From a virus, in IMG/VR virus record IMGVR_UViG_3300025418_000694, positions 31,818 through 95,817 of that record: a DNA stretch of 64,000 bases; one strand, given 5' to 3'. Shown here in pieces: positions 3,576-15,600 of this stretch; position 1 is the first letter of the stretch; every line of letters starts with the position of its first letter. Position numbers and translations under genes: made by a program. Below the pieces are notes generated by a model. The model did no database searches. It had not been told where the DNA came from and saw only the letters and a program-made list of their open reading frames with translations.

Positions 3576-3680
3576 AGCGCGATGATCCTCACCTTGGGCT
3601 ACTGCCTAACAAACTTAGGTCATACCTGTGGATTTCACCTGGCAGCCATGTCTATTTGTCGACAATTTAACCCTAGGGGG

Positions 3681-3724
3681 GTCTGAGAATAGTCTGAGAA
3701 TAGTCTGAGAATAGGCTGTGAATA
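3681..3724 (+). repeat. 11-bp tandem array A (4 units)
   Basis: Three exact copies of GTCTGAGAATA are followed by GGCTGTGAATA, with an exact 11-bp period. The array ends 6 bp before the -35 element of the sigma gene promoter. One unit per helical turn suggests a row of protein-binding sites on one face of the DNA. Related arrays precede four other operons. Confidence 0.85.
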
Positions 3725-3730
3725 ATGGGC

Positions 3731-3757
3731 GGGAATAAATAGGTGATAGGTTTGGTT
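3731..3757 (+). promoter_or_regulatory. ECF-type promoter A (sigma gene)
   Basis: GGGAATAA at 3731-3738 is followed after exactly 16 nt by GTTCAC, giving GGAAT-N18-GTT, the consensus known for actinobacterial SigR/SigH. It faces the sigma factor gene 43 nt downstream, which suggests autoregulation. The leader holds a hairpin (GTGAGC 3768-3773 with GCTCAC 3779-3784). Confidence 0.8.
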
Positions 3758-3799
3758 CACTAAGCAAGTGAGCAAGGGGCTCACTGATAGGGGTACAAA

Positions 3800-4294
3800 A
3801 TGGACAAGGCACAACTAAGCAAGGACATACTAAACTATCAAGGGATGCTTTATGGTTACGCCATGAAACTAACTAATGGCAATTCACATGACTCTCTCGA
3901 TTTGGTACAGGATACTTTCGAGAAAGCGCTCGCTAATAGTGAGAAGTTTGACGGGGCTAATCTTCAAGCGTGGCTTCACACTATCCTCCGCAATCAATTC
4001 ATCAACGTTTACCGCAAGCAGTCTCGCATGGTAGTGGCTGATGAAACCGCGCTAGTGGAATTAGAAACAGAAACCGCGCCTAGCGCAGAGTACCGCGCAA
4101 TTTTCAATCACTTTTCGCCTAAAGTCTCTCAAGCCTTACAGGCTCTAGGGGATGACTTTCTAAAGGTTGTCTACCTAGTAGACATAGAGGGTTTCACTTA
4201 TGAGGAAACCGCTAATCAACTAGGCGTTAAAACCGCCACAGTAGGCACACGCCTAAACCGCGCACATAAGGTTCTAAGGGAGGCTCTAGCATGA
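3800..4294 (+). CDS. phage ECF RNA polymerase sigma factor
   Basis: This 164-aa protein has only sigma regions 2 and 4, the layout of group IV (ECF) sigmas. Region 2 spans about residues 10-75, with DLVQDTFEKAL and AWLHTILRNQFINVYRK. Region 4 spans about 105-160, with VVYLVDIEGFTYEETANQLG and TVGTRLNRAHKVLREAL. The region 4 pattern resembles the SigR/SigH (ECF12) group. It would bind host core RNA polymerase and redirect it to the GGAAT-N18-GTT promoters found in this block, including its own. No RsrA-like HxxxCxxC anti-sigma follows; the next gene is a 30-aa membrane peptide. ATG 3800 follows AGGGG. Confidence 0.93.
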   Translation: MDKAQLSKDILNYQGMLYGYAMKLTNGNSHDSLDLVQDTFEKALANSEKFDGANLQAWLHTILRNQFINVYRKQSRMVVADETALVELETETAPSAEYRAIFNHFSPKVSQALQALGDDFLKVVYLVDIEGFTYEETANQLGVKTATVGTRLNRAHKVLREALA

Positions 4295-4383
4295 ACCCAC
4301 TCACAAGCGGACTCCCAATCACAATTCTGTGGTTGGGGGCGAGCATAAGTTTCTACCTACTGATTAGGGACTTAACGAAATAA
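4291..4383 (+). CDS. single-span membrane peptide (30 aa)
   Basis: The ATG lies within the last codons of the sigma gene (ATGA overlap) and the frame stops with TAA at 4381. The product is mostly one hydrophobic helix (GLPITILWLGASISFYLLI) with a short basic end. Its position directly after an ECF sigma, where anti-sigma genes often sit, is suggestive, but nothing else supports that role. Confidence 0.5.
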   Translation: MNPLTSGLPITILWLGASISFYLLIRDLTK

Positions 4384-4388
4384 GAAGG

Positions 4389-4406
4389 GGCGCGGGAAAC
4401 CGCGCC
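4389..4406 (+). terminator. hairpin terminator after sigma operon
   Basis: GGCGCGG and CCGCGCC pair around a GAAA tetraloop a few bases after the stop of the 30-aa gene. The downstream run is TCTCTCTC rather than pure T, so it is a moderate terminator or a stabilising 3' hairpin. Confidence 0.6.
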
Positions 4407-4444
4407 TCTCTCTCGATTCCCCGTAGGGGTATGGGGAGGGTGGG

Positions 4445-4503
4445 CCAACACAAACAATTGGCATTGGGAGCAAGGCATTAGGGAAGTGTTTACAATTCCC
4501 TAA
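4445..4503 (+). repeat. inter-operon element: CAACACAAACAATT motif plus inverted repeat
   Basis: The motif CCAACACAAACAATT (4445-4459) recurs in three later inter-operon regions. It is followed by an 8-bp inverted repeat, TTAGGGAA (4478-4485) with TTCCCTAA (4496-4503). Both lie just upstream of the 11-bp array and promoter B, so an operator role is likely. The binding protein is unknown. Confidence 0.6.
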
Positions 4504-4513
4504 AAGTGTTTAT

Positions 4514-4546
4514 TCCTGAGAGATTCCTGAGAATTATCTGGAAATT
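4514..4546 (+). repeat. 11-bp tandem array B (3 units)
   Basis: Units TCCTGAGAGAT, TCCTGAGAATT and ATCTGGAAATT follow an exact 11-bp period, sharing CTGRRA at the same phase. The array ends 6 bp before the -35 of promoter B, as in array A. Confidence 0.75.
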
Positions 4547-4552
4547 ACCTTA

Positions 4553-4579
4553 GGGAATAATAACCAACCCTAACCCGTT
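4553..4579 (+). promoter_or_regulatory. ECF-type promoter B
   Basis: GGGAATAA (4553-4560), a 16-nt spacer, then GTTATAC. It faces the operon starting at 4621. The leader contains a hairpin, GTCGG (4593-4597) with CCGAC (4603-4607), before the AGGGGAAAAAATG start region. Confidence 0.8.
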
Positions 4580-4620
4580 ATACAGGTACAAGGTCGGAAA
4601 CGCCGACAAAAGGGGAAAAA

Positions 4621-4911
4621 ATGAACCACTTATACAAAAGCAATTATTCAAGCCTTACTGATGTAGATGTACAGATGGATGTACGCGACAGCACCAACGG
4701 GGATGTCATGTTCGAGATGAACATGTCTAGTTGGCATGATAATAATACCTATCATGTCATGGAGCAATTCATCCTTACAGAGGCGCAGGCGCGCTCACTA
4801 AAAGAAGCACTAGAGACTTATCTAGAGGCTAAGTATGATGAGCGTGAAGCAGTTGCCCTAGCGCAATTTGACGCAGTACGTGACGACCTATTTGAAGTGG
4901 AGGCAGAATAG
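4621..4911 (+). CDS. hypothetical protein, operon B (96 aa)
   Basis: An AGGGG Shine-Dalgarno precedes this ATG. The product begins MNHLYKSNYSSLTDVDVQMDVRD, reads like a beta-rich N-terminal half, and ends in an acidic helix (LEAKYDEREAVALAQFDAVRDDLFEVEAE). No family is recognised. It is the first gene of the second sigma-driven operon and its stop overlaps the GTG of the next gene. Confidence 0.7.
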   Translation: MNHLYKSNYSSLTDVDVQMDVRDSTNGDVMFEMNMSSWHDNNTYHVMEQFILTEAQARSLKEALETYLEAKYDEREAVALAQFDAVRDDLFEVEAE

Positions 4912-5135
4912 TGGAAACACTATCAGCACTAGCAATTAAGAAAGATTCGGTGACTAGAGAAATGCTAGCCAGCGAGTTAGATGAAATGAACGCAGATTCA
5001 CGCGCCTATTGTCTAATGCAGGTAATCGGACACCTAGAGTTAGACAAGGCACAAGGTCAAGAGTTATTCCCACTCTGGACAGCGTGGGTTACTGCTCGCA
5101 GTATTAACAATGACGCTTACGGATTGAGGGACTAA
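4911..5135 (+). CDS. hypothetical protein, operon B (74 aa)
   Basis: A GTG start in a TAGTG overlap opens this frame. The product begins METLSALAIKKDSVTREMLASELDEMNADS and is acidic and probably helical. It has no recognised domain. Its stop overlaps the next ATG (TAATG), so the three genes of this operon are coupled. Confidence 0.65.
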   Translation: METLSALAIKKDSVTREMLASELDEMNADSRAYCLMQVIGHLELDKAQGQELFPLWTAWVTARSINNDAYGLRD

Positions 5136-5410
5136 TGGGACATAATTTCGCACAAGAATTGGCTAGCGGGGAGTTAACACTCCCCCTAGAGGAGGCTATA
5201 GCGATTCACCTAAGAAGTAATCACTATCCACCCGTACCGCTTTCTATGGTAACCCCCTGTATAGAAGCCATAGATAAATGCAACGAGGGTGATTCTGGCG
5301 CGCTAATAGACTTACCCGATCCAATTAAATGGAAAGGCGCAAGCCAAGCACCAGCGTATGCAGTAATAGAAGGTCATCACTTAGAACCATGGGTTCAATG
5401 GGATGACTAA
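5135..5410 (+). CDS. hypothetical protein, operon B (91 aa)
   Basis: The product begins MGHNFAQELASGELTLPLEEAIAIHLRSNHYPPVP and ends EGHHLEPWVQWDD. Pro-rich segments and a C-terminal HH motif are visible, but no family. A strong hairpin terminator follows 10 nt downstream. Confidence 0.65.
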   Translation: MGHNFAQELASGELTLPLEEAIAIHLRSNHYPPVPLSMVTPCIEAIDKCNEGDSGALIDLPDPIKWKGASQAPAYAVIEGHHLEPWVQWDD

Positions 5411-5419
5411 CCCCAGATA

Positions 5420-5442
5420 GGGAGGCTACCCCCTAGCCTCCC
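5420..5442 (+). terminator. terminator after operon B
   Basis: GGGAGGCTA (5420-5428) pairs perfectly with TAGCCTCCC (5434-5442) around a five-C loop. It is 9 nt after the last stop of operon B. The following sequence TAATTTG is only weakly T-rich. Confidence 0.7.
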
Positions 5443-5516
5443 TAATTTGAAATGCTTGCCAAAAGCAAGGCGTGTTATGCCGCAGCCATAACCGAGGACT
5501 CACTCGAACTGGGATT
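5443..5516 (+). ncRNA. candidate small structured RNA between two terminators
   Basis: This 74-nt stretch has no gene and is bracketed by two strong terminator hairpins. It can form CTTGC-caaaa-GCAAG (5455-5469) and GTTATG-ccgcagc-CATAAC (5474-5492), then a CTCGAAC stretch reminiscent of a T-loop. The length and 7-nt loop look tRNA-like. However, C replaces U33, no acceptor stem pairs and no D-loop GG is present, so I do not call a tRNA. Confidence 0.3.
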
Positions 5517-5539
5517 AAAGCCACCAAATCGGTGGCTTT
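5517..5539. terminator. hairpin terminator
   Basis: AAAGCCACC (5517-5525) pairs perfectly with GGTGGCTTT (5531-5539) around AAATC. T-rich sequence on both strands makes it a plausible bidirectional terminator insulating the next module. Confidence 0.7.
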
Positions 5540-5577
5540 ACTATTTAACTCCCTGACGGCATTGGGTTAGGCATTGA

Positions 5578-5591
5578 CCAACACAAACATT
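5578..5591 (+). repeat. CCAACACAAACATT inter-operon motif
   Basis: This is the second of four forward copies of CCAACACAAACAtT, here 36 bp upstream of array C. The rest of 5411-5746 contains only terminators, the candidate RNA, this motif, the 11-bp array and the promoter. Confidence 0.6.
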
Positions 5592-5626
5592 AGGCTTTCG
5601 GGTATTGGCGCAAACTCCCCAAACAA

Positions 5627-5670
5627 AACTGAGAGATTTCTGAGAATTGGCTGAGAATTGCCTGGAAATA
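5627..5670 (+). repeat. 11-bp tandem array C (4 units)
   Basis: The units are AACTGAGAGAT, TTCTGAGAATT, GGCTGAGAATT and GCCTGGAAATA, each 11 bp apart, with CTGAGA at constant phase. The array sits immediately upstream of promoter C. Confidence 0.8.
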
Positions 5671-5675
5671 GCGGC

Positions 5676-5702
5676 GGGAATAAATTGGGGTTATGAGCCG
5701 TT
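5676..5702 (+). promoter_or_regulatory. ECF-type promoter C
   Basis: GGGAATAA (5676-5683), 16-nt spacer, then GTTATACAG, the same -10 as promoter B. A leader hairpin GAATAGCC (5711-5718) with GGTTATTC (5724-5731) lies between the promoter and the Shine-Dalgarno. Confidence 0.8.
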
Positions 5703-5746
5703 ATACAGATGAATAGCCACACGGGTTATTCGGGAAAGGTAATCAA

Positions 5747-5941
5747 ATGCTAACTGATACACAATCTCGCGAGATTAACCATCTCGTATTGCAATTATCT
5801 GCTGATTTAACAGTAGCGCCCGACTTTATAGTTGAGGCTATCCGCGAGGATGAAAGCGTAAACGCGCTAGTCTATCGCTGGCTCACACGTGGGGGAGTGG
5901 AATACCGCTCAATCCTAGACCTACTCAATGGGATGTTCTAA
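5747..5941 (+). CDS. hypothetical protein, operon C (64 aa)
   Basis: AAAGGTAATCAA precedes this ATG. The product begins MLTDTQSREINHLVLQLSADLTVAPDFIVEAIRED and appears wholly helical, ending WLTRGGVEYRSILDLLNGMF. No family is recognised. Its stop overlaps the next ATG (TAATG). Confidence 0.65.
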   Translation: MLTDTQSREINHLVLQLSADLTVAPDFIVEAIREDESVNALVYRWLTRGGVEYRSILDLLNGMF

Positions 5942-6147
5942 TGATTAAATTCCCACACACAATTAAATTGGTTGCTGAATTAGATGAAAATAATCCAAGC
6001 ACCAAGGCGCTCCAAGCGCTACCAGAATACCTACAGCATAAATTGCTTGAAGAAGCGTTTATTGGAGCACTAAATAGATTAAGCGTGTTTGATACCATAA
6101 ATGAGGGCTCAACATGGGGAATAGTTAAGGTGGATACCAATGGATGA
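5941..6147 (+). CDS. hypothetical protein, operon C (68 aa)
   Basis: The product begins MIKFPHTIKLVAELDENNPSTKALQALPEYLQ and is a small mixed alpha/beta protein with no recognised motif. It is coupled to both neighbours by overlapping stop/start codons. Confidence 0.65.
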   Translation: MIKFPHTIKLVAELDENNPSTKALQALPEYLQHKLLEEAFIGALNRLSVFDTINEGSTWGIVKVDTNG

Positions 6148-6265
6148 ACAAGCCGAGCGTATCAAGGAGCGCATGTCCGAGGAGTTAGATGACATCCTAG
6201 CCAATGGAGACCTGCAAGCGTTCGAGGAATTATTCGAGGATCGAGACCCGTTCGAATTCCTATAA
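6140..6265 (+). CDS. acidic mini-protein, operon C (41 aa)
   Basis: An ATG at 6140 overlaps the preceding gene (ATGGATGA) and the frame ends with TAA at 6263-6265. The product MDEQAERIKERMSEEL...FEDRDPFEFL is a short acidic helix. Position and coupling support it being a gene; function is unknown. Confidence 0.55.
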   Translation: MDEQAERIKERMSEELDDILANGDLQAFEELFEDRDPFEFL

Positions 6266-6277
6266 CAAAAGTGGGGC

Positions 6278-6304
6278 GGGAATAAAAAGCCCGCCCCAAT
6301 CGTT
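6278..6304 (+). promoter_or_regulatory. ECF-type promoter I with hairpin across the spacer
   Basis: GGGAATAA (6278-6285), 16-nt spacer, then GTTACAG, 25 nt upstream of the HTH gene's ATG. The -35 and spacer are embedded in a perfect 8-bp inverted repeat, GGGGCGGG (6273-6280) with CCCGCCCC (6290-6297). In RNA from operon C this would be a terminator-like hairpin, so one sequence may serve both functions. Confidence 0.7.
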
Positions 6305-6326
6305 ACAGCAACAGAAGGGAGGAAAC

Positions 6327-6659
6327 ATGGAAAATGAAGTAGATGTGCTGCTTAAGCGCCTAAAAGAATTGGGCGTAGAGGCTAAGCCCGTTCGTGTCAA
6401 TGAGCGCCAAAAGGCTACGCTACAAAAAATTGTAGAGGCTGATGTCGCTATTAAAGAAGCGCGGGAAACTATCAAGCAGGCTACAGAAAATTGGCGCGTA
6501 TCTAGGGAAACACTAGACCGCCTATTAGTAGAAGCCCGTAAGATGAAAGTAACCCAAGCAGAAATTGGCAAAGCCCTTGGTATTAGCAATGGCTCTGTAT
6601 CAAGTAGGACAATTACGGCACGCCGTAGAGTCCGTAAAAGAAACCGCACCAAGAAATAA
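6327..6659 (+). CDS. helix-turn-helix DNA-binding protein (110 aa)
   Basis: The N-terminal two thirds is a predicted coiled coil (LLKRLKELGVEAKPV through RETIKQATENWRVSRETLDRLL). The C-terminus is a helix-turn-helix: MKVTQAEIGKALGISNGSVSSRTITARRRVRK, about residues 72-103, followed by a basic tail. ATG 6327 is chosen because GGGAGG lies 4 nt upstream and the promoter starts transcription near 6312; longer upstream reading cannot be translated from it. It is a good candidate for the protein that binds the 11-bp arrays or palindromes in this block, but that is inference. Confidence 0.8.
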   Translation: MENEVDVLLKRLKELGVEAKPVRVNERQKATLQKIVEADVAIKEARETIKQATENWRVSRETLDRLLVEARKMKVTQAEIGKALGISNGSVSSRTITARRRVRKRNRTKK

Positions 6660-6670
6660 CCGATAAATTT

Positions 6671-6774
6671 CTGAGGCTATCCGTCGCCAATCGAAGCCGT
6701 AATTGCCTCAGTTCCCCAAAGTAGGTGGTTGGTTCCCACCTGCTAGAGCGCGGGTATACCTTCCCCCCGCGCTC
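6671..6774 (+). terminator. three successive hairpins after the HTH gene
   Basis: CTGAGGC (6671-6677) pairs with GCCTCAG (6705-6711). GTAGGTGG (6721-6728) pairs with CCACCTGC (6736-6743). GAGCGCGGG (6746-6754) pairs with CCCGCGCTC (6766-6774). The stretch 6660-7002 has no gene; these hairpins, the inverted motif pair, array D and promoter D fill it. Confidence 0.6.
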
Positions 6775-6782
6775 ACCCCTAA

Positions 6783-6869
6783 AATGTTTGTGTTGAACCC
6801 GCCCGCCCACATGCCTGAAGGGAATAAGCCAATTGGACAATTGTTAAACAATTGTCCAACACAAACATT
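6783..6869. repeat. inverted motif pair flanking a perfect palindrome
   Basis: AATGTTTGTGTTG (6783-6795) and its reverse complement CAACACAAACATT (6857-6869) flank a 27-bp perfect palindrome at 6832-6858: TTGGACAATTGTT, A, AACAATTGTCCAA. GGAATAAGCC just upstream of the palindrome and ATTCC just after the right motif place GGAAT-N17-GTT on both strands. It could thus be a bidirectional promoter, an operator or an origin-like element. Confidence 0.65.
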
Positions 6870-6878
6870 CCTAGCCCA

Positions 6879-6922
6879 AAGTGAACATTAGGTGAACATT
6901 ACCTGAGAGAAACCTGTGAATA
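6879..6922 (+). repeat. 11-bp tandem array D (4 units, two types)
   Basis: Two units contain GTGAACATT and two contain CTGAGAG/CTGTGAA, all in the same 11-bp phase. This is the junction between the two repeat types seen in the block. Confidence 0.75.
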
Positions 6923-6927
6923 GAGAT

Positions 6928-6954
6928 GGGAATAATGAGAGGGTAGTATCCGTT
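6928..6954 (+). promoter_or_regulatory. ECF-type promoter D
   Basis: GGGAATAA (6928-6935), 16-nt spacer, then GTTCTAC. The leader has an 8-bp hairpin, TGAAAGCG (6962-6969) with CGCTTTCA (6982-6989). Because transcription starts near 6962, the gene start must be the ATG at 7003 rather than any upstream codon. Confidence 0.8.
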
Positions 6955-7002
6955 CTACTATTGAAAGCGAAACCAACCAAGCGCTTTCAGAATAGGACAA
7001 AA

Positions 7003-7386
7003 ATGAACACAACTGACACTCTTACAGTATCAAACGAGTTTACTGTAGGCGAACTATGGGAAGCAGTCTGGGGCTGTGACGGAGCGGGCATGGTCTATTG
7101 GTGCTCTAAAATCCGCACTCCAGAAGGCAAGGACATCTATCTTTTCCTCAACAAAGGTGATGAATTTGTCCCCAACCCTCAACCTGTCAAAATTTATGAC
7201 ACGACAGGCGTTACTCCTAAAACCTACGTGGTAACTGTCGAGGATTTGCGCCGAGGCTACGAACTAGCACTCAAAGCAGGTCAGACACATTGCGGAGGTT
7301 ATCCTCTAGAAATTGACGACGCCGACTCCTGTTTCGGTGACATGGTTATACAGTACGCAATCTTTAACGAATTAGTCTACGGATAG
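7003..7386 (+). CDS. hypothetical protein, operon D (127 aa)
   Basis: The start is ATG 7003 with AGGA 7 nt upstream. The product begins MNTTDTLTVSNEFTVGELWEAVWGCDGAGMVYW and contains Cys, Trp and a C-terminal QTHCGGYPLEIDDADSCFGDMVIQYAIF segment. It looks like a compact alpha/beta protein, but no family is recognised. It leads a four-gene operon. Confidence 0.7.
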   Translation: MNTTDTLTVSNEFTVGELWEAVWGCDGAGMVYWCSKIRTPEGKDIYLFLNKGDEFVPNPQPVKIYDTTGVTPKTYVVTVEDLRRGYELALKAGQTHCGGYPLEIDDADSCFGDMVIQYAIFNELVYG

Positions 7387-7397
7387 GAAGGGAAAAC

Positions 7398-7532
7398 ATG
7401 AGCGAAGTAGTATGGCAGAGCCAAATCACAGAGGACATGGTTCAAGATGTAAGCGCCCGTTCGTTCTTATTTGAGGAATTGGACGACGCGGTAATGCGAA
7501 TTTGTCAGGAATACGGGGTAAAATCCCTATGA
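7398..7532 (+). CDS. hypothetical protein, operon D (44 aa)
   Basis: AAGGGAAAAC precedes the ATG at 7398, and TGA at 7530-7532 overlaps the next ATG. The product begins MSEVVWQSQITEDMVQDVSARSF and ends AVMRICQEYGVKSL. It is helical and acidic; the family is unknown. Confidence 0.55.
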   Translation: MSEVVWQSQITEDMVQDVSARSFLFEELDDAVMRICQEYGVKSL

Positions 7533-7675
7533 GCCGTAGACACTTTCGCGCCCTAGCCGAAGCCCTAAAGGACTCAGGCGCTAGTTATCAGACTGTGGCT
7601 GCTATTGCTAGAGTCTGTGCCAATGAAAACCCAAGATTTGACTCCTCTAAGTTCTTTGAGGCGTGTGGCGTATGA
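7529..7675 (+). CDS. small conserved phage protein (48 aa)
   Basis: The ATGA overlaps fix both ends. The product begins MSRRHFRALAEALK and ends ENPRFDSSKFFEACG. This pattern (a basic start, helical middle, then NPRFD-x3-F-x2-ACG) is one I recall in many actinobacteriophage small proteins of unknown role. Confidence 0.65.
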   Translation: MSRRHFRALAEALKDSGASYQTVAAIARVCANENPRFDSSKFFEACGV

Positions 7676-7839
7676 CTACCTATAACACAGTAGTGCGCTT
7701 ATACGCCTCAATAGAGGCAGAAACAGAGGAACAAGCAGAGTCAAGACTCCATGACTACATGAATAGCGTGGGTCTAGTTCCTAGTAATTGCGTTGTAGTC
7801 GCCGATTATGACGTAACAGACTTCGACAAGGAGGATTGA
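7672..7839 (+). CDS. hypothetical protein, operon D (55 aa)
   Basis: An ATGA overlap begins this frame and TGA at 7837-7839 ends it. The product MTTYNTVVRLYASIEAETEEQAESRL...VVVADYDVTDFDKED looks like a small ferredoxin-fold beta-alpha-beta protein. The family is unknown. Confidence 0.6.
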   Translation: MTTYNTVVRLYASIEAETEEQAESRLHDYMNSVGLVPSNCVVVADYDVTDFDKED

Positions 7840-7885
7840 CGGAGACTAGCCGAGCCTGTCCTAGCCGTAATTGTATCCGTCAAGG

Positions 7886-7911
7886 GCGGTGGGAAGTAAA
7901 AAGCCCACCGC
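7886..7911 (+). terminator. terminator after operon D
   Basis: GCGGTGGG (7886-7893) pairs with CCCACCGC (7904-7911) across a loop containing AAGTAAAAAG. It lies 46 nt after the last stop of operon D. The T-run is absent, so efficiency is uncertain. Confidence 0.55.
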
Positions 7912-7936
7912 TATACAAAAAGCGCGGAAATGTCTA

Positions 7937-8048
7937 AATTGTTTGTGTTGACCCACCCACCCACGTACCTAAATACGACATCTTATTCCGCAATAAGCGG
8001 AATAAGCATTTGGGCTAATTGTTTAACAATTAGCCCAACACAAACATT
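7937..8048. repeat. second inverted motif pair with palindrome
   Basis: AATTGTTTGTGTTG (7937-7950) faces CCAACACAAACATT (8035-8048). Between them lie a perfect hairpin, CTTATTCCGC (7982-7991) with GCGGAATAAG (7997-8006), and a 25-bp perfect palindrome at 8012-8036, GGGCTAATTGTT, T, AACAATTAGCCC. The AATTGTT/AACAATT core is shared with the palindrome at 6832-6858. There is no gene in 7840-8394; this element, two arrays, an inverted repeat and promoter F account for most of it. Confidence 0.65.
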
Positions 8049-8057
8049 CCCGCCCCA

Positions 8058-8123
8058 AGATGAACATTAGATGAACATTAACTGAGAGATTGCTGAGAGA
8101 TTACTGAGAGAAGGCTGAGAGCC
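8058..8123 (+). repeat. 11-bp tandem array E (6 units)
   Basis: Two TGAACATTA units are followed by four CTGAGAG units, all at an 11-bp period (anchor bases 8061, 8072, 8083, 8094, 8105, 8116). It is the longest array and the only one not followed by a GGAAT-N18-GTT promoter. Confidence 0.8.
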
Positions 8124-8156
8124 AATCTATAGTAGAGTGAGAGTCTGCTATAGATT
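8124..8156 (+). promoter_or_regulatory. inverted repeat with possible TATAGT -10 element
   Basis: AATCTATAG (8124-8132) and CTATAGATT (8148-8156) form a perfect 9-bp inverted repeat. The left arm contains TATAGT at 8128-8133, a good housekeeping -10, with the array where a -35 would be. This may be an activator-dependent promoter, or simply an operator. Confidence 0.4.
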
Positions 8157-8272
8157 AAAAATGGACACGCCTTCGGCTACTGTCTAAAGAACGAAGTGAG
8201 AGTGTAGCGATACGTCCAGATTATTGCTATATGTCCGATTTGTCTTATATGATAACAATCTCTGCGATTACT
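8157..8272 (+). other. gene-free stretch, possible structured RNA
   Basis: No convincing gene is present. An ATG at 8161 gives only eight codons (MDTPSATV). The RNA could pair TGGAC (8162-8166) with GTCCA (8215-8219) around smaller hairpins such as GCC-TTC-GGC. It could be a leader or small RNA from the TATAGT promoter; evidence is weak. Confidence 0.25.
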
Positions 8273-8305
8273 GTTCACCTTCCGTTCACCTTCCGTTCAT
8301 CTACT
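8273..8305 (+). repeat. 11-bp tandem array F (3 units, reversed type)
   Basis: GTTCACCTTCC occurs twice and GTTCATCTACT once, at an 11-bp period. GTTCAC is the reverse complement of the GTGAAC unit in arrays D and E, so the same sites are present in the opposite orientation, directly upstream of promoter F. Confidence 0.75.
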
Positions 8306-8308
8306 TAG

Positions 8309-8335
8309 GGGAATATATATCTACTCTATTCCGTT
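8309..8335 (+). promoter_or_regulatory. ECF-type promoter F
   Basis: GGGAATAT (8309-8316), 16-nt spacer, then GTTCTAT, facing the AAA+ gene. The leader contains a hairpin GCGCC-aat-GGCGC (8362-8374) just before the AGAAGGAAGG Shine-Dalgarno. Confidence 0.78.
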
Positions 8336-8394
8336 CTATCCATGTACGACAAACACTAACCGCGCCAATGGCGCACTATTAGAAGGAAGGCAGT

Positions 8395-9774
8395 ATGACA
8401 CTAGCAGTATTGGTGGAGACCTTAGAGGGCGAAGCGCGCTCACAGACTCTCCTATTCCCTCACAAGGGAGAAGTGCGGATTTATCACCGCCTCTCAACAG
8501 GTCAGGCAGGACGTGGACAGACATGGTCTCACCTATCTGATATAGAGGATTTGCCCGACACTCTCCTATCCAAGAAACCCGTAGCCGTTGTCCTCACCGA
8601 GCGCGATACTGCTCTCGTTGATACAGGACTCGTTACCAATATCGGTGCTAAGGCTCTCTATGCCTATGAAAGTGCCGACCCTGTTACCGCGCCAATCTCA
8701 CACAGAGATAGCGTTCTAGACCTTAAAACTCGATTCGAGTCAGGAGACAACTCTCTCTCTGATTTGATTACCGATAAACGTCGTAATCAGGGTGTAATTC
8801 TAACCCCGTTGAGCGCGACCCCGAACGTGACCTTTATTAAGCAAAGTGAGCCTATCAAGCAAGAAGTAACAATAGGCGCACACGAAAGCACACGTCTCGC
8901 CTATGAAAATATGATTACTGTTCCCGACCAAAAGTGGTCACGTGATTATATAAACCGCTACTTTGAGGACGGCAAGTCCGACTTCGAGATTTATGACTAC
9001 GCAGATTCTAACGATATAAACGTTCTAATCGAAGGTGGCGCTGGTTCAGGCAAGACCATGAGTGTAATCGCCTATGCCTCTGCTAGACAGAAGCGTTATT
9101 TCAACGTCTCCTCTAATGCTGGTATTGACCCTAGCCAACTATTCGGGCGCTGGATTCCTAGAGAGGACGGACATGGTTATCGCTGGCAGGACGGCGCAGT
9201 CACTCTCCTAGTTCGACATGGCGGAGTTCTACTCCTCAATGAAGTGAACTTCATGCCCGAACGTATTATGACAGTTCTCTATTCCTTACTAGATGACCGA
9301 CGTGAGATTCAATTATTGGATAACGGCGGTGAGGTTATTAAGGCTCACAAAGACCTGCTAATCGTGGCAGACATGAACGCTGGTTATCGTGGCACTCACG
9401 AACTATCACAGGCTAACAATGACAGGTGGAAAATTAAACTAGAGTTTCCTTACGATAAGAAAATCGAAAGCAAACTAATCAAGTCTAAGGCTCTGCTGGA
9501 ATTGGCTCAAAAGTTACGTGACCGATTCGACCTAGATGAACTCACAACTCCAATCTCGACACGTGGTCTAGTAGCACTACAAAATAACGTGACGGGTCTA
9601 GGCTTGAACTTCGCAATTACTTCTTACGTCAATGGATTCGACAAAGATGAACGCGTGGCAGTTCGTCAGGTAATCGAAACAATGAAGTGGAATATCGCAA
9701 CCGACTTCGGTGTAAAGGTTGAAGTCGAACCTACAGATTCAATCGTAACCGAGACAGTAAAGGTGGATAACTAA
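8395..9774 (+). CDS. MoxR/CobS-like AAA+ ATPase
   Basis: This 459-aa protein has an unknown N-terminal domain (1-180) and a MoxR/CbbQ/CobS-type AAA+ module. The Walker A is GGAGSGKT at 214-221, the Walker B is VLLLNE at about 278-283 (Asn replacing the usual Asp), and sensor 1 is VADMN near 329. Such ATPases pair with VWA proteins to remodel substrates or insert metal ions; CobS with CobT inserts cobalt in B12 synthesis. The next gene, 1 nt downstream, is a VWA protein, so the pair is intact. CobS-like genes are known in phages, but the substrate here is unknown. The phage RNR needs B12, which makes a cobalt role worth testing. Confidence 0.85.
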   Translation: MTLAVLVETLEGEARSQTLLFPHKGEVRIYHRLSTGQAGRGQTWSHLSDIEDLPDTLLSKKPVAVVLTERDTALVDTGLVTNIGAKALYAYESADPVTAPISHRDSVLDLKTRFESGDNSLSDLITDKRRNQGVILTPLSATPNVTFIKQSEPIKQEVTIGAHESTRLAYENMITVPDQKWSRDYINRYFEDGKSDFEIYDYADSNDINVLIEGGAGSGKTMSVIAYASARQKRYFNVSSNAGIDPSQLFGRWIPREDGHGYRWQDGAVTLLVRHGGVLLLNEVNFMPERIMTVLYSLLDDRREIQLLDNGGEVIKAHKDLLIVADMNAGYRGTHELSQANNDRWKIKLEFPYDKKIESKLIKSKALLELAQKLRDRFDLDELTTPISTRGLVALQNNVTGLGLNFAITSYVNGFDKDERVAVRQVIETMKWNIATDFGVKVEVEPTDSIVTETVKVDN

Positions 9775-9775
9775 T

Positions 9776-11734
9776 ATGGGTCGCCGTCGCCGTCGCAATA
9801 ATGGACTAATCTCTGAATTGGATTCCCTATCCACAGGACGTGGACTCCATGAACGTATCAACGATAACAATGAGTGGGAACTCTATGATGAGGAAAGCGG
9901 TTTAGCAGTAACCCATGCCGAACTAGTCGCAAAATACACAGAGCGCGCTAACCGACTCAATGCGGTGGCACAGGTGTACGAACGTGTAGATAGGATTCTC
10001 ACCAATGAGGATATTACTGTTCGTGTAATCAACGATAAGAATATGGATACCAATGCCCGTTCCAATGGAAAGGATATTGAACTCAATGCCAATCTAATTG
10101 AGGATTTATCTGACGAAAGTATTATGAGCCTTCATGGTCTGAACTATCACGAACTAGCGCACGTGGAGTTCTCTCCCCGTCAGGGTTCAGACTTAGGAAT
10201 ATACGTTCGCGATAATAAACTGTTTAAGGCAATCGCAATTCTAGAGGAAGGTCGCGCTGAACAATTACTGCTCAAAAAGTATCCTTCAATTCGACCTTAC
10301 CTAGAAGCAAGTGTTTATACCTACGTGTTAGCAGACCAGCCTAGTGATTGGGGAACTAAGTTTCATCTAATCACAGGTCGCACCTACTTACCACTAGAAA
10401 TTAGGCAATCTATTCTAGACAAAGCAATCGTTCAATACGGATATGAAATTGTCTCCAACGTTCACTCGATTATCCATGCCTATCGTGACTTAGTGTTCCC
10501 TGCTGATTTCGATAAGGCTAAAGAACTCGCACACAGACTCGCCAATATACTCGGACATGATGAGGATTCTAATAATTCAGGTTCAAGTTCTAGTGAAGGT
10601 TCAGAGGAGTCTAAGGACTCAAAAGGTATCACAGGTGTAGGCGGTGGGTGCGGTCTGCCTAGTAAGGGCAGACCAGCAAGCGGAAAGGAGCAGGCTAAGT
10701 ATCAAAGCCAGCCCTCTAATGATAAATTAGAAAGCCTCAACACAAACAGGTCGCAAAGCGATAGCGGTTCAGGTAGCGAAATTGAAACTCAATCGGTCAA
10801 TGATTCAGATTCAGAAATTACTGCCAAAGATGTTGAAGTGGCTCATGCTCTCAATGAGCGCATGAACCAACTAAAGCAGGACTCTCGCGTTAAGCGCGAA
10901 GTCAAGGACACTCGAAATGCGATTCTCGGTTCAGGTGAGGCTAAGGCTGATATTCCAACAGGTGACACTATGGAAATCGCACCTTCTATGGGAGCAATCT
11001 CAATGGCAAAGCGATTCAGCACAGAGTTAGAACGCATAGTGCGAAACAATGACCCTGCTTGGGTAGGTCGCACTAGAAGTGGTCGCCTGAATATCTCTCG
11101 CACCATGAACCCTGATGTCAATGCTATCTCTGAAATGTTCGACCAATGGGATATTGGTAATGAAGCCACCGATATAGAAGCGGTTATCCTTACCGATAAT
11201 TCAGGTTCAATGGGCGGTTCAATGAAAGCAGTATGCGAGAACACTTGGATTCTAAAGCGCGCTATCGAAAGCATAGAAGGTTCAGTAACCGCCTTCTCCT
11301 TCGATTCTGATACTGAACTGCTCTACTCTAAAGATGATAAGGCTAAGTCTAGAGTAATGAAGTTCGTGGGTTCACGTGGAAGCACTAACCCACTACGCGG
11401 AATTATCGAAGCAGACCGCATATTGACCTCATCTAAAAAGTCAATCAAGATTCTATTTATAGTTACTGACGGGGATTGGGAGCGCCAAGAACAATGCGAC
11501 GACCTAATCAAGTCTATGAACAATAAGGGATTCCTGACGTGCGTAGTGTTCTTAGGTGATTTCAAGTCCTATCAGAACCTAATCGAGCAGTCTGCTAGAG
11601 GTGATGACCGCGCTACTAATTACTTAAAGGCAATACGTCACCACGCCAAAGTGTTCCACGCTGTTACCAACACCGCAGATATTCTCAAAGTGGCAAGTAT
11701 GCTAGTCAAATCAACTCTAAAGAAGGTGGCTTAG
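9776..11734 (+). CDS. VWA protein with HExxH metallopeptidase-like domain
   Basis: This 652-aa protein has a HELAH zinc-binding motif at 125-129 in LNYHELAHVEF, with a downstream EEGR (157-160) placed like a third metal ligand. A Ser/Gly/Asp-rich linker follows at about 260-350. A C-terminal von Willebrand A domain has a MIDAS motif DNSGSMGGS near residue 474 and a TDGDWE loop further on. The order metallopeptidase-like domain plus VWA matches proteins encoded next to MoxR ATPases, and resembles CobT at the C-terminus. It probably acts as the substrate arm of the upstream AAA+ ring. Whether HELAH is catalytic is unknown. Confidence 0.85.
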   Translation: MGRRRRRNNGLISELDSLSTGRGLHERINDNNEWELYDEESGLAVTHAELVAKYTERANRLNAVAQVYERVDRILTNEDITVRVINDKNMDTNARSNGKDIELNANLIEDLSDESIMSLHGLNYHELAHVEFSPRQGSDLGIYVRDNKLFKAIAILEEGRAEQLLLKKYPSIRPYLEASVYTYVLADQPSDWGTKFHLITGRTYLPLEIRQSILDKAIVQYGYEIVSNVHSIIHAYRDLVFPADFDKAKELAHRLANILGHDEDSNNSGSSSSEGSEESKDSKGITGVGGGCGLPSKGRPASGKEQAKYQSQPSNDKLESLNTNRSQSDSGSGSEIETQSVNDSDSEITAKDVEVAHALNERMNQLKQDSRVKREVKDTRNAILGSGEAKADIPTGDTMEIAPSMGAISMAKRFSTELERIVRNNDPAWVGRTRSGRLNISRTMNPDVNAISEMFDQWDIGNEATDIEAVILTDNSGSMGGSMKAVCENTWILKRAIESIEGSVTAFSFDSDTELLYSKDDKAKSRVMKFVGSRGSTNPLRGIIEADRILTSSKKSIKILFIVTDGDWERQEQCDDLIKSMNNKGFLTCVVFLGDFKSYQNLIEQSARGDDRATNYLKAIRHHAKVFHAVTNTADILKVASMLVKSTLKKVA

Positions 11735-11854
11735 GTGTTCTTTATAGTATCTATGGGGCTAATTCTAGTAATAGCGTTAGCCCTAATCATAACTGAAGTA
11801 GATGATTCACTGAAGGACGAGTGGGAAGCGTGGGAAAGGAAACAGAAATGGTAA
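11735..11854 (+). CDS. single-span membrane peptide (39 aa)
   Basis: A GTG immediately after the VWA stop opens 39 codons ending TAA at 11852. The first 20 residues are hydrophobic (MFFIVSMGLILVIALALII), followed by an acidic then basic tail (DEWEAWERKQKW). The next ATG overlaps its stop. It could anchor the AAA+/VWA complex, but this is a guess. Confidence 0.55.
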   Translation: MFFIVSMGLILVIALALIITEVDDSLKDEWEAWERKQKW

Positions 11855-12027
11855 TTCAATTCGGAACTAGCGCGGATAATCTAGATTATGCCGTACTACA
11901 GAAGGAAACGCTGAACCAATTAAAGGGCGCACTACTAGCAGAGCAGACTCGCAACGAGTATCTAATCAACTTAGTGGACACCGCTATTGACTACTCGTTC
12001 TATTTAACAGATGAAAGGATTAAATAA
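11848..12027 (+). CDS. hypothetical protein (59 aa)
   Basis: The ATG at 11848 (ATGGTAA overlap with the previous stop) is preferred over an upstream GTG at 11821 that would run through the preceding gene. The product MVIQFGTSADNLDYAVLQKETLNQLKG is mostly helical, with no known family. Confidence 0.6.
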   Translation: MVIQFGTSADNLDYAVLQKETLNQLKGALLAEQTRNEYLINLVDTAIDYSFYLTDERIK

Positions 12028-12267
12028 ATGAGCGAACACCACTTTGTAATCAAGTTCAACACAAACAATGGGCGGTTCGATTGGGATTCAGATACCGAGT
12101 CGGCTCGATTCCCCGAAGGCGCTATCTATCTTTCAGAGGTCAATAAATGGGTGGATTCCTCATATAACGATTCTCTGAACCAAATAGACACACAAGCAGG
12201 TGAGGCGCTTAGTCAAACCCTAAACGTATTAAACCTGATGTACGAACAAGCAGGAAACAAGGAATAA
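12028..12267 (+). CDS. hypothetical protein (79 aa)
   Basis: The product begins MSEHHFVIKFNTNNGRFDWDSDTESARFPEG and looks like a beta hairpin followed by helices. Its 3' end contains the -35 of promoter G. No family is recognised. Confidence 0.6.
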   Translation: MSEHHFVIKFNTNNGRFDWDSDTESARFPEGAIYLSEVNKWVDSSYNDSLNQIDTQAGEALSQTLNVLNLMYEQAGNKE

Positions 12268-12286
12268 AAGTAAAGAGTCAAATGTT
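12261..12286 (+). promoter_or_regulatory. ECF-type promoter G (intra-operon)
   Basis: GGAATAA at 12261, 16 further bases, then GTTATAT at 12284 gives GGAAT-N18-GTT. The -35 overlaps the stop region of the upstream gene, and no 11-bp array is present. The ATG of the next gene is 32 nt from GTT. Confidence 0.65.
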
Positions 12287-12315
12287 ATATAGAGATATAA
12301 AGAGAGGAATAAATA

Positions 12316-12621
12316 ATGCCACACCCACTAAGCGGTCTAACGCCCGACGAAAAGCGTAAGTTATTCAAGATGTTCGAGATTATGTCTGAACCTAGTGATA
12401 CTTCACATGAGGACATGATGTACGTCGTGAATAACGTTAGTCCTATGGTCGAGATACTAAAGAAAACTATCAGCAATCGCATGATAGATAGCGGTATCAG
12501 CGCAGAGGAAACAGACGCTCTATTAAGTACGTTGATAGGAGTATCTAATATGGCTGGCGGTGTTAGTTTCGCCGACTTCGCCCACACAGAAAGCATGGCA
12601 GAGGATTTATCAGATAACTAG
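12316..12621 (+). CDS. hypothetical protein (101 aa)
   Basis: The start is preceded by AGAGAGGAATAAATA. The product begins MPHPLSGLTPDEKRKLFKMFEIMSEPSDTSHEDMMYV and is acidic and helical throughout. It is unrecognised. A gene-free, structured stretch follows. Confidence 0.65.
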   Translation: MPHPLSGLTPDEKRKLFKMFEIMSEPSDTSHEDMMYVVNNVSPMVEILKKTISNRMIDSGISAEETDALLSTLIGVSNMAGGVSFADFAHTESMAEDLSDN

Positions 12622-12830
12622 AGTTGGATAGACACTTGGATAAGATAGACCTAATCTAACTACCAACAGACTTCAAGTTAGTCACATGAACAGTTTAATT
12701 ACTTAGTAATAAGACTCCGAGTAAGTTGAGGTATCAGGGTCGCAAAGACGAAAGGACTTGCGAAGGAGTTAGTTCCTAAACGTTGTACCTAGTGTCTATC
12801 TACGCAATCTAATCGAAAGAAGGTAAGTAA
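12622..12830 (+). ncRNA. candidate structured RNA or long leader (about 200 nt)
   Basis: This 209-nt gap has no gene. GATAGACACT (12627-12636) pairs perfectly with AGTGTCTATC (12791-12800), closing the whole region. Inside are AGAT/ATCT (12643-12657), ACTTA/TAAGT (12701-12726), TCGCAA/TTGCGA (12740-12763) and AGGA/TCCT (12764-12777). A closed multi-branch fold of this size suggests a functional RNA or riboregulator of the downstream gene. It matches no RNA family I know; I looked for tmRNA, RNase P and group I intron core motifs and found none. Confidence 0.5.
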
Positions 12831-13121
12831 ATGGGAATAGTAAGTCCCGAACTCGCTCACAGATACGAGCGTGAGTTAGTAGGCTCTACTCTAATTAACG
12901 AGTATGGCGACACTATCGTTAAGGCTAAACACCTTAAAGATAATACGTTTCTAGTCATAGCGGTAAGACCCGTAAAGACTAATCCGTACCAAGTATCAAA
13001 GGTAATCTATATTTCAGAGGACTTCTTAAACCCCTACAACGAAACAGGGGCAGAGACTTTGGAAGAAGCAGAAATTATATTTAATGAAAGGATTGAAAGT
13101 GGCAAAATACTCAATAGTTAA
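12831..13121 (+). CDS. hypothetical protein, paralogue 1 (96 aa)
   Basis: The product contains LAHRYERELVGSTLIN, IVKAKHLKDNTFLVIAVRPVKTNP and TLEEAEIIFN. The protein at 13278-13595 shares the same framework, so the two arose by duplication. The start ATG follows AGAAGGTAAGTAA. The function is unknown. Confidence 0.7.
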   Translation: MGIVSPELAHRYERELVGSTLINEYGDTIVKAKHLKDNTFLVIAVRPVKTNPYQVSKVIYISEDFLNPYNETGAETLEEAEIIFNERIESGKILNS

Positions 13122-13278
13122 AACTGTTACTTACGATTTGGAAGCCGTAATCTATTCTGATTTATCAGAGGACGAACTAAAGCAGAGTCTAAAGCATGAT
13201 GATTCAGATGTTGAGTACGAACAAATAGAGGGTAATGATGTTCAGTTCTATCTAGATTTATTAGAGGACGACGAGTAA
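13099..13278 (+). CDS. hypothetical acidic protein (59 aa)
   Basis: GTG 13099 has GAAAGGA about 6 nt upstream and is preferred; an ATG at 13084 would lengthen it by five residues. The product begins VAKYSIVKTVTYDLEAVIYSDLSEDELKQSL and is strongly acidic at its end (LDLLEDDE). It sits between the two paralogues. Confidence 0.55.
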   Translation: MAKYSIVKTVTYDLEAVIYSDLSEDELKQSLKHDDSDVEYEQIEGNDVQFYLDLLEDDE

Positions 13279-13595
13279 TGTCTAATAAACTTACAGACCT
13301 GTACGAAAAAGAAATGGTAGGCGCTGAACTTACGAATAAAGCGGTGGTAATCAAATCTAAACACCTAGAGGGCAGTAAGTATATTGTCCTTGCCGTTCGT
13401 AAAGTTCCAGCAGAACCTCTCTATGATGAGCGAGATGTTGAGAAAACAACTCCTATTTATCACCGCCCATATATTGTATGGCAGGTGGATAAAAAGACTA
13501 TGCGACCTATGAGTGGAGAGTATGCTCTGACACTAGAGGAAGCAGAGGAAGTCTATGAAATATATGGGAATAAAAAGAAGTTCTTAATCGTTTAA
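13278..13595 (+). CDS. hypothetical protein, paralogue 2 (105 aa)
   Basis: The product begins MSNKLTDLYEKEMVGAEL and contains VVIKSKHLEGSKYIVLAVRKVPAEP and LTLEEAEEVYE, matching paralogue 1 with a longer middle insertion. Its last codons overlap promoter H. Confidence 0.7.
   Translation: MSNKLTDLYEKEMVGAELTNKAVVIKSKHLEGSKYIVLAVRKVPAEPLYDERDVEKTTPIYHRPYIVWQVDKKTMRPMSGEYALTLEEAEEVYEIYGNKKKFLIV
13566..13592 (+). promoter_or_regulatory. ECF-type promoter H (intra-operon)
   Basis: GGGAATAA (13566-13573), 16-nt spacer, then GTTTAAT at 13590. It lies in the end of the preceding gene, whose stop is the TAA after GTT. The downstream ATG at 13622 is 32 nt from GTT, as for promoter G. Confidence 0.7.
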
Positions 13596-13621: not shown

Positions 13622-14104
13622 ATGGGCATGGACGTATATGGAAAGAACGCTACGGACGAACGTGGCGAGTACTTTAGAAACAATGTATGGTGGTGGAGAC
13701 CACTATGGGACTACTGCGAGCAGGTCTATCCACCTTGTCGTGAGATAGACGGACACTCAAATAGCGGTGCTGGCTTTGATGTAGAAGGCGCACACGCACT
13801 ACGCGACGCACTTATTAAAGAGATTAGTAGTGGTCGCACCTATGAATATGAGAAAGAACGCCAAGAGTTCTTAGATTCTATTCCTGATGAGACTTGTACC
13901 TTATGTGAAGGCATGGGAATAGTTCAAGTTAAAGAGGGCTGGTTCGATTACGTAGAGGGAGAAGTTACCTTCCGCGACCCATGTAATGCCTGTAATGGAA
14001 CTAAGGTCAAGAGACCTTTCGAGTGTAATTATGGATTCAGCGTAGAGAACGTAAAAGAGTTCTGCCAATTCCTAACTACCTGCGGTGGATTCGAGATTTG
14101 CTAA
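13622..14104 (+). CDS. conserved MGMDVYGK protein with zinc site (160 aa)
   Basis: ATG 13622 gives the start MGMDVYGKNATDERGEYFRNNVWWWRPLWDYC, which I recall as the conserved beginning of a phage and bacterial family of unknown role; a TTG nine bases upstream is less likely. GGGAG lies 10 nt before the ATG. CTLCEGMG and CNACNGTK form a DnaJ-like double CxxC zinc site at about residues 92-125. Confidence 0.75.
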   Translation: MGMDVYGKNATDERGEYFRNNVWWWRPLWDYCEQVYPPCREIDGHSNSGAGFDVEGAHALRDALIKEISSGRTYEYEKERQEFLDSIPDETCTLCEGMGIVQVKEGWFDYVEGEVTFRDPCNACNGTKVKRPFECNYGFSVENVKEFCQFLTTCGGFEIC

Positions 14105-14334
14105 TGAATAACGAGACCTTATCAGAGAGCGTTTCTACGCATGGCAATCTTTCAAGGGGATTAGCCGACACACTTTCAGAAATTATGGGCAGACCTGTCA
14201 CACACTTAGCAGTTATCTCTGCCTTATCTATTGAAGGAATAAAGTTAGATATAGATACAGAAGGAATATCCTCTATTGCTATGGAATACGGAACTCATCT
14301 CCTTCACAAAAGTAGAAGTGAGGAAGATGAATAA
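14104..14334 (+). CDS. hypothetical protein (76 aa)
   Basis: The ATG overlaps the upstream TAA. The product begins MNNETLSESVSTHGNLSRGLADTLSEIMG and ends in an acidic tail (SRSEEDE). It is helical and unrecognised. Confidence 0.6.
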   Translation: MNNETLSESVSTHGNLSRGLADTLSEIMGRPVTHLAVISALSIEGIKLDIDTEGISSIAMEYGTHLLHKSRSEEDE

Positions 14335-14423
14335 TGAGCCTGTGTAATTGGTGCGGAGATGAAATGAAAGAAGGATTATGGGAATCCCATATCTGTATAG
14401 ACTCTGAAAGTGAAAGTAAATAA
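14334..14423 (+). CDS. zinc-finger-like mini-protein (29 aa)
   Basis: A TAATG overlap starts it and TAA at 14421 ends it. The sequence MSLCNWCGDEM...SHICIDSESESK has C-x2-C and H-x-C, consistent with one zinc site. Confidence 0.5.
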   Translation: MSLCNWCGDEMKEGLWESHICIDSESESK

Positions 14424-14551
14424 TGGATAGATGTATAAATTGTGGTTATGAAATAGATGAAGCAGTAAGCGACCCAACAGGTATGTGTCAGACCTGTTGG
14501 TGGGCTTATGACAAGGGCTATCAAAAAGCAAAACAGGAAGCGAGCGAATAA
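14423..14551 (+). CDS. double-CxxC mini-protein (42 aa)
   Basis: A TAATG overlap sets both ends. The product MDRCINCGYEIDEAV...GMCQTCWWAYDKGYQ carries two CxxC pairs, a minimal zinc ribbon. It is one of several tiny zinc proteins in this operon. Confidence 0.55.
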   Translation: MDRCINCGYEIDEAVSDPTGMCQTCWWAYDKGYQKAKQEASE

Positions 14552-15113: not shown

Positions 15114-15116
15114 ACC

Positions 15117-15169
15117 TTCGCTATGGGTTGATGAAACCTTAGGGATTAAGTAGTCAGCACCATAGCGAA
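15117..15169 (+). promoter_or_regulatory. long stem-loop upstream of ATT-start gene
   Basis: TTCGCTATGG (15117-15126) pairs perfectly with CCATAGCGAA (15160-15169) around a 33-nt loop. The Shine-Dalgarno AAGGAG follows 7 nt later and then the unusual ATT start. Such an arrangement suggests translational control of the next gene, or a small regulatory RNA. Confidence 0.55.
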
Positions 15170-15189
15170 ATCTATTAAGGAGTAATTTA

Positions 15190-15597: not shown

Positions 15598-15600
15598 TAA

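Follow-up and report, generated by a model that had tools for sequence, protein, structure and literature searches.

Does the ECF sigma factor encoded by this phage read a promoter set of its own and, if so, which genes does it serve? We addressed this in a 64,000-nt window (the whole stretch of DNA analysed) of a 95.8-kb phage record, for which an earlier note had proposed a dedicated, autoregulated regulon. From the sequence it is reasonably probable that an autoregulated phage ECF sigma serves a rightward arm comprising about 30 genes, most of them unknown, although a host sigma of this type may read the sites too.

Promoter-like sites precede most gene clusters of one genome arm

An exact search of the window for GGAAT-N18-GTT recovers all eight plus-strand sites named in that note, at 3732, 4554, 5677, 6279, 6929, 8310, 12261, and 13567; the note had placed each one base early except 12261. 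Seven carry the longer box GGGAATA, as claimed, the exception being AAGGAATA at 12261. Only two matches lie on the minus strand of the window (8050 and 9285), both in the right arm and neither before minus-strand genes, in keeping with the earlier observation. At every site the GTT stands 22–59 nt upstream of a start codon; these distances had been given as 25–62 nt. Six sites are intergenic, while those at 12261 and 13567 lie partly within the 3′ end of the gene before them. The sites precede nearly every gene cluster of one genome arm, and the right-arm gaps of at least 40 nt without any site are 12622–12830 and 15114–15189. The features, all on the plus strand, are listed below (sites 2–8 from the motif search).

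3731–3757 (+): site 1, GGGAATA-N17-GTT, before the sigma gene; the GTT ends 42 nt upstream of the ATG at 3800
3800–4294 (+): ECF sigma factor, 164 aa; sigma2 about 1–80, linker, sigma4 about 107–163
4291–4383 (+): hydrophobic 30-aa peptide, probably single-span, overlapping the sigma stop codon (ATGA)
4553–4579 (+): site 2
4621–5410 (+): three-gene unit following site 2 (ORFs, profile scan)
5676–5702 (+): site 3
5747–6265 (+): three-gene unit following site 3 (ORFs)
6278–6304 (+): site 4; the following gene starts at 6327
6327–6659 (+): small HTH protein with likeness to sigma region 4 only (Sigma70_r4 1.3e-6, scanned from 6204; weak ECF-profile matches)
6928–6954 (+): site 5
7003–7839 (+): gene cluster following site 5 (ORFs)
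8309–8335 (+): site 6
8395–9774 (+): MoxR/CobS-like AAA+ ATPase following site 6 (AAA_5 1.1e-18; phrog_249 4.3e-42)
9776–11734 (+): CobT/CoxE-like VWA-domain protein adjoining the ATPase, with Gordonia and Brevibacterium phage homologues
12261–12286 (+): site 7, the AAGGAATA variant, overlapping the preceding gene end
12316–12621 (+): single gene following site 7 (ORF)
13566–13592 (+): site 8, overlapping the preceding gene end
13622–16185 (+): run of about ten small genes following site 8, the first with a DnaJ-like Cys motif

The earlier note had proposed a scan of the whole genome on both strands against shuffled sequence. Across the 95.8-kb record, GGGAATA-N17-GTT occurs seven times forward and never in reverse, whereas dinucleotide shuffles of the whole genome give a mean of 0.09 (maximum 2 in 300), which excludes an equal density on the opposite strand or in shuffled sequence. 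The reversed control pattern has no match on either strand of the record, other spacings between 12 and 24 nt have 0 or 1 match each over the whole record, and none of 2000 right-arm shuffles reaches the observed count. When all 6-mer/3-mer pairs with spacers of 12–22 nt were searched, two independent signals led in the right arm: GGGAAT-N18-GTT and an 11-bp repeat array. A matrix trained only on seven sites of relatives places all eight window sites within the top 11 of 191,554 positions, site 7 ranking 11. Pairwise identity among the sites is 1.0 in the GGAATA box and 0.32 in the spacer; with invariant boxes and variable spacers, the sites are not a simple duplication.

Several further matches were set aside. 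The matrix match at -1436 recurs in the relative G068 and lies in the structural region, and those at 37789 and 34842 fall inside ORFs on the opposite strand. Matches with N17 or N19 spacers at 6821 and 7999 lie within inverted repeats, and that at 6226 within a coding frame.

The published actinobacterial SigH promoter core is GGAAT-N18-19-GTT, with GGAATA-N17-GTT at mshC and trxB1 of the C. glutamicum SigH regulon (PMC10012870), in agreement with the SigR/SigH consensus recognised in the earlier note. All eight sites have the SigR/SigH-group promoter form with a spacing of exactly 18, a likeness of site form that does not identify the reader.

A compact ECF sigma factor follows the first site

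The product of 3800–4294 matches Pfam Sigma70_r2 (1.5e-15) and r4_2 (5.6e-8), both over cut-off, TIGR02937 (5.2e-25; 88 bits against a cut-off of 42.9), PHROG 1740, annotated as RNA polymerase sigma factor (1.4e-25), and M. tuberculosis SigH (2e-22). It has the ECF (group 4) architecture, in which a short linker connects region 2 to region 4, and neither region 1.1 nor region 3 is present. An AlphaFold model (pLDDT 79.6), whose alignment rows left out plasmid sequences, predicts a pair of helical domains with a disordered linker; fitted to Streptomyces SigR, sigma2 superposes at 1.1 Å (43% identity) and sigma4 at 1.7 Å (44% identity).

The earlier description of a SigR-like ECF sigma is thus borne out for the ECF assignment and the domain likeness, but not for family membership: TIGR02947 (SigH_actino) is its best NCBIfam match, yet at 108.7 bits falls below the 251.55 cut-off, and no short HxxxCxxC protein of the RsrA/RshA zinc anti-sigma type was found in the phage record. 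In a tree with long branches, its nearest sequences by path are a Tsukamurella SigR (adjoining rsrA) and Bacteroidota ECFs. A direct search of viral contigs with the sigma found no relative, and a search with a two-sequence alignment recovered mostly unrelated ECFs. No Rfam family scored above threshold. The region upstream of the sigma gene yielded no sigma70-like promoter.

Tandem 11-bp repeats lie upstream of most sites

Arrays of 11-bp repeats, absent from the earlier note, stand directly upstream of the -35 box at most sites and nowhere else in the genome; the two sites at gene ends lack them.

3681–3724 (+): 11-bp tandem array, GTCTGAGAATA x4, directly upstream of site 1
4512–4550 (+): 11-bp array, CTGAGA-type, upstream of site 2
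5629–5664 (+): 11-bp array upstream of site 3
6878–6917 (+): 11-bp array, GTGAACATTAG then CTGAGA type, upstream of site 5
8058–8121 (+): 11-bp array with no GGAATA site after it, preceding a conserved non-coding block
8273–8299 (+): 11-bp array, GTTCACCTTCC, upstream of site 6

The right-arm gaps also share TTTGTGTTG...CAACACAAACATT inverted repeats. Outside this phage (G000) and its relative G043, only a few weak arrays were found in the family. The tandem repeats probably serve to position an activator or a repressor along one face of the helix.

The motif recurs before a divergent sigma gene

Among 50 family members tested, only G022 has a sigma70-ECF match over cut-off, and it has one copy of the motif directly in front of that sigma gene and another ahead of a second gene. 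The two sigmas are 32% identical and the terminases 83%, which allows for separate acquisition of the sigmas. A restrictive array-plus-motif pattern, run over 2.9 million viral contigs, matched G022 and its relative L110 and no others; scanning genome contigs with the terminase gave no match. G022, G021, and L110 are related, and G021 and L110 end before any sigma gene would be visible, so independent comparisons are few. G043, a relative of nearly equal size, has three GGAATA-N18-GTT sites before right-arm genes (a fourth, at 42026, is intragenic and was not used for the matrix) and a gene similar to that of the 6327–6659 HTH protein; no sigma70 region 2 was detected in it. In two Streptomyces phage relatives that lack a sigma, GGAATA-N17-GTT matches number 0 and 1, and most relatives without a sigma show background motif counts only.

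The phage carries a WhiB gene, its terminase is nearest to those of Streptomyces phages, and its VWA protein is nearest to those of Gordonia and Brevibacterium phages. From these features the host of this lake virus is very probably actinobacterial.

Model of arm transcription and its alternatives

This phage combines an encoded sigma with an enriched, phage-wide motif before transcription units, as expected of a phage sigma with dedicated promoters. We infer that the compact two-domain sigma would join the host core RNA polymerase after infection and bind promoters composed of a -35 element GGGAATA, a spacer fixed at 18 nt counted from GGAAT, and a -10 element (C/G)GTT(A/C)(T/A)A, directing transcription of its own gene and of seven further rightward-arm units. 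The arm would be switched on as a block, including the CobS/CobT-like AAA+/VWA pair and the small region-4-like HTH protein. Because a site stands before its own gene, the sigma would amplify its own synthesis, and matching sites before nearly every cluster of the arm probably make this a private, self-amplifying program. Of the dedicated regulon proposed earlier, we retain a motif that exceeds chance, is one-sided and promoter-placed, and recurs before the divergent sigma of G022, but not the phage sigma as sole reader, given that host SigH/SigR share the core and that G043 has sites without a sigma. The figure of about 33 regulon genes assumes read-through from eight starts.

That shared core would also suit a host SigH/SigR-type stress sigma as the main reader, with the phage tapping the thiol/heat stress regulon and its own sigma acting as a later supplement or replacement. 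G043 and the very probably actinobacterial host fit this reading, and since the sigma gene has no sigma70-like promoter upstream, something must start its first transcription. In both ECF-sigma phages found, however, the motif directly precedes the sigma gene, and the background counts in most sigma-less relatives also argue against it. Host SigR is normally held by its anti-sigma, and early expression in unstressed cells would be poor. We consider a host main reader unlikely. As a tentative extension, the phage may have taken over the promoter code of its host's thiol-stress regulon: host SigH/SigR would read the sites first, then the phage sigma, which in turn would activate host SigR-type stress genes, making infection and stress response one regulon in which the 11-bp arrays form a phage-specific layer putting viral promoters ahead of the host's.

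A reading in which the GGAATA-GTT pair is not a promoter, and belongs instead to an intergenic repeat (an operator, a terminator, or a replication cassette) whose copies are alike by descent, is very unlikely. The arrays and inverted repeats common to right-arm gaps would suit such an element, but conservation is limited to two boxes at fixed spacing with random spacers, the two gene-end sites have no arrays, start codons follow 22–59 nt downstream, and the site form is a known promoter consensus. Alternatively, the HTH protein rather than the ECF sigma could be the main factor, perhaps in the role of an activator at the 11-bp arrays or the -35 element; it occurs in both multi-site phages, this one and G043, whereas the sigma occurs only in the former. 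Having no sigma region 2, it cannot supply -10 recognition, and nothing ties it to the arrays, which leaves this role highly improbable. The preferred reading remains an autoregulated phage ECF sigma.

Comparison with known systems

Few phage sigmas have an assigned promoter set, and the worked-out cases found are enterobacterial phages. For this uncultured actinobacterial phage, sequence allows candidate target promoters of the sigma to be named, and relatives confirm them; about 30 unknown genes are thereby placed in a single candidate transcription program. These promoters coincide with a host stress consensus, and the question arises whether a phage sigma can take over the SigR/SigH promoter class. 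G043, with promoters and no sigma, raises that of evolutionary order: did promoters or sigma come first?

There are precedents for phage sigmas with promoters of their own. Phage 7-11 gp47 and phiEco32 gp36 likewise provide a phage sigma with its own promoter set on the host polymerase (PMC8948821, PMC4331800), and in 7-11 reading by the phage sigma is experimentally established (PMC8948821). The 7-11 promoters are GTAAtg-(16)-aCTA at late genes, whereas here a SigH/SigR-type consensus precedes an arm of small unknown genes; phiEco32 has a single promoter element, in contrast to the two boxes GGGAATA and GTT. Unlike both, this phage has a site before its own sigma gene, and 11-bp arrays upstream of most sites. 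The sigma also matches the phage sigma family PHROG 1740, a label that carries no promoter information. The freshwater actinobacterial Planktophila phages E7 and F5 likewise encode a sigma-70-type factor (TIGR02943) and WhiB; they are 39-kb phages, with no promoter set described in the part of the source consulted (PMC10202952). Further parallels are S. coelicolor SigR and M. tuberculosis and C. glutamicum SigH, which share the domain folds (38–44% identity) and the core GGAAT-N18-GTT. The phage differs from those systems in having no RsrA/RshA-type zinc anti-sigma, in a sigma sequence far below the SigH_actino cut-off, and in the -10 continuation, GTTMWA versus GTTgaa in C. glutamicum.

Genome context and the sigma factor

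The viral record is 95,817 bases long (window, 31,818–95,817) and belongs to an actinobacterial phage, as indicated by a WhiB gene in this genome (G000:62545–62769, 5.4e-18), a large terminase whose closest isolate relatives are Streptomyces phages, including BRock and GiJojo (53–54%), and a VWA protein with named relatives in Gordonia and Brevibacterium phages. Most genes, both structural and replicative, run leftward, and a separate arm runs rightward. Features in window coordinates are:

~3.7–16.2 kb, + strand: rightward arm of ~30 small genes
3800–4294, + strand: ECF sigma factor, 164 aa
6327–6659, + strand: HTH gene, resembling sigma region 4 only
8120–8240, + strand: non-coding block ahead of the AAA+ ATPase gene
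8395–11734: AAA+ (MoxR/CobS-like) and VWA (CobT/CoxE-like) pair, also in Gordonia and Brevibacterium phages
26060–26503, − strand: ORF that by eye looks like a small heat-shock protein (HSP20/alpha-crystallin-like)

The sigma factor contains sigma region 2 (1.5e-15) and region 4 (5.6e-8), and its AlphaFold model has a loose linker between two helical domains. Among solved structures, M. tuberculosis SigH complexes are its best matches, and it aligns with S. coelicolor SigR at 1.1 Å for region 2 (1h3l, 43% identity) and 1.7 Å for region 4 (5fgm, 44% identity). SigH_actino is the top NCBIfam profile, at 108.7 bits far under the 251.55 cut-off; the tree gives no firm placement, and no short protein in the phage record carries the RsrA-type anti-sigma motif HxxxCxxC. 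The earlier note's "SigR-like" thus holds as resemblance to SigR/SigH but not as group membership, and we do not file the protein there.

Eight promoter-like sites

All eight GGAAT-N18-GTT sites that the earlier note assigned to a phage sigma regulon were found on the + strand, within one base of where it placed them, with a start codon 22–59 nt past the end of GTT in every case (HTH gene start taken as 6327). A scan of both strands of the full record gave seven forward and zero reverse matches to GGGAATA-N17-GTT, against 0.09 in shuffles and zero for a reversed control pattern; spacings other than 18 gave 0–1 matches each. When all 6-mer/3-mer pairs were searched without bias, GGGAAT-N18-GTT reached p = 1e-9 in the right arm.

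A matrix built on seven sites of other family phages (three from G043, two from G022 and one each from G021 and L110) is a non-circular test of the window sites. Among the 191,554 positions scanned in the window's genome, both strands included, it ranks the eight sites 1–5, 8, 9 and 11; ten positions exceed 15 bits at spacing 18, against at most three at any altered spacing from 15 to 21. Across 16 sites (these eight and seven plus a G043 in-gene match), strong conservation is limited to GGAATA, GTT and an A three bases past GTT and does not extend to the spacers, giving the refined consensus (G)GGAATA(A/G)-N15-(C/G)GTT(A/C)(T/A)A.

Upstream arrays and other non-coding elements

Most −35 boxes are immediately preceded by tandem 11-bp repeats, absent from the earlier note, with units of CTGAGAATWNN, GTGAACATTAG or, at site 6, the reverse complement of GTGAACATTAG. 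Lags 11 (z = 9.5) and 22 are the sole autocorrelation peaks in the upstream DNA, and within this genome the arrays are confined to the right arm; those of G043 are CGTTATC-type. Register against the −35 box is constant to ~1 base in most array-bearing sites, which therefore keeps the repeats on one helix face. We infer that an activator or repressor may bind these arrays.

The 8120–8240 block recurs partly in G043 (L161 ~1000–1140, minus) and in L022 (~9700), with GGCTACT...GATAC as the shared core. Shuffled versions fold less well (z −2.4) and Rfam gives no match; the block is a candidate small RNA or leader. Gaps in the right arm (6783–6869, 7937–8047, 4445 and 5578) hold inverted repeats TTTGTGTTG...CAACACAAACATT, frequently with an inner hairpin, possibly a terminator or boundary element, and the CAACACAAACA element is widespread among relatives. 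At the divergent junction (window 3660–3680; L106, L110, L161), a TTAACCCT-GGGGGGTCT stretch is conserved in the window, G022, L110 and G043. In G022 and G021, DnaA-box-like TTATCCACA boxes (L106 1–60 and 790–845; L107 70–130) are grouped close to the sigma gene and the genes upstream of it.

Recurrence in relatives and a possible host reader

Of the 50 long family members, G022 alone has an ECF sigma over the cut-off; it shares 32% identity with the window's sigma, against 83% for the terminase. GGGAATA-N17-GTT occurs there twice, immediately before its own sigma gene and before one other gene, both copies with CTGAGA-type or GGGGGGTCT sequence upstream. Of 2.9 million viral contigs, a restrictive pattern (two CTGAGA repeats plus the motif) matched G022 and L110 alone. 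G021 and L110 share the first rightward gene of G022, again with the motif ahead of it, and their contigs stop short of any sigma gene position. G051 has three scattered matches; in most other relatives, and in two Streptomyces phage relatives, counts are at background. The right arm of L114, from a close relative with neither sigma nor motif, has a GTTAT-N13-CGTG(TC) pair four times, possibly another promoter class.

In G043 (95,815 bases), three right-arm genes have GGAATA-N18-GTT ahead of them and one further copy lies inside a gene; a weaker site precedes an HTH gene similar to the window's, and sigma region 2 was not found in the record. Either the sigma was lost, or the record missed it, or the promoters are served by a host factor of the SigH/SigR type. 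The last is realistic because the mshC and trxB1 promoters used by C. glutamicum SigH carry GGAATA-N17-GTT (PMC10012870). Host reading would also account for the first transcription of the window's sigma gene, as the DNA upstream of that gene has no sigma70-like promoter.

For the window phage, homology, sites, statistics and recurrence are direct observations, from which we infer binding, transcription, timing and what the arrays do. Most likely, and with reasonable confidence, the phage sigma would bind host core polymerase, recognise the eight promoters, amplify its own synthesis via site 1 and turn on the rightward arm.

Comparison with known systems

Dedicated promoter sets have already been described for phage sigmas, namely phiEco32 gp36 and 7-11 gp47, the latter with eight promoters (PMC8948821). 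The consulted part of a report on freshwater actinobacterial phages gives sigma-70 factors and describes no promoter sets (PMC10202952). Whereas 7-11 gp47 promoters read GTAAtg-(16)-aCTA, those here follow a SigH/SigR-type consensus, which is new in a phage. Also new are a site ahead of the gene for the sigma itself, seen in two divergent phages, an arm of small genes as the target, the 11-bp arrays and the loose coupling of sigma to promoter class across the family.
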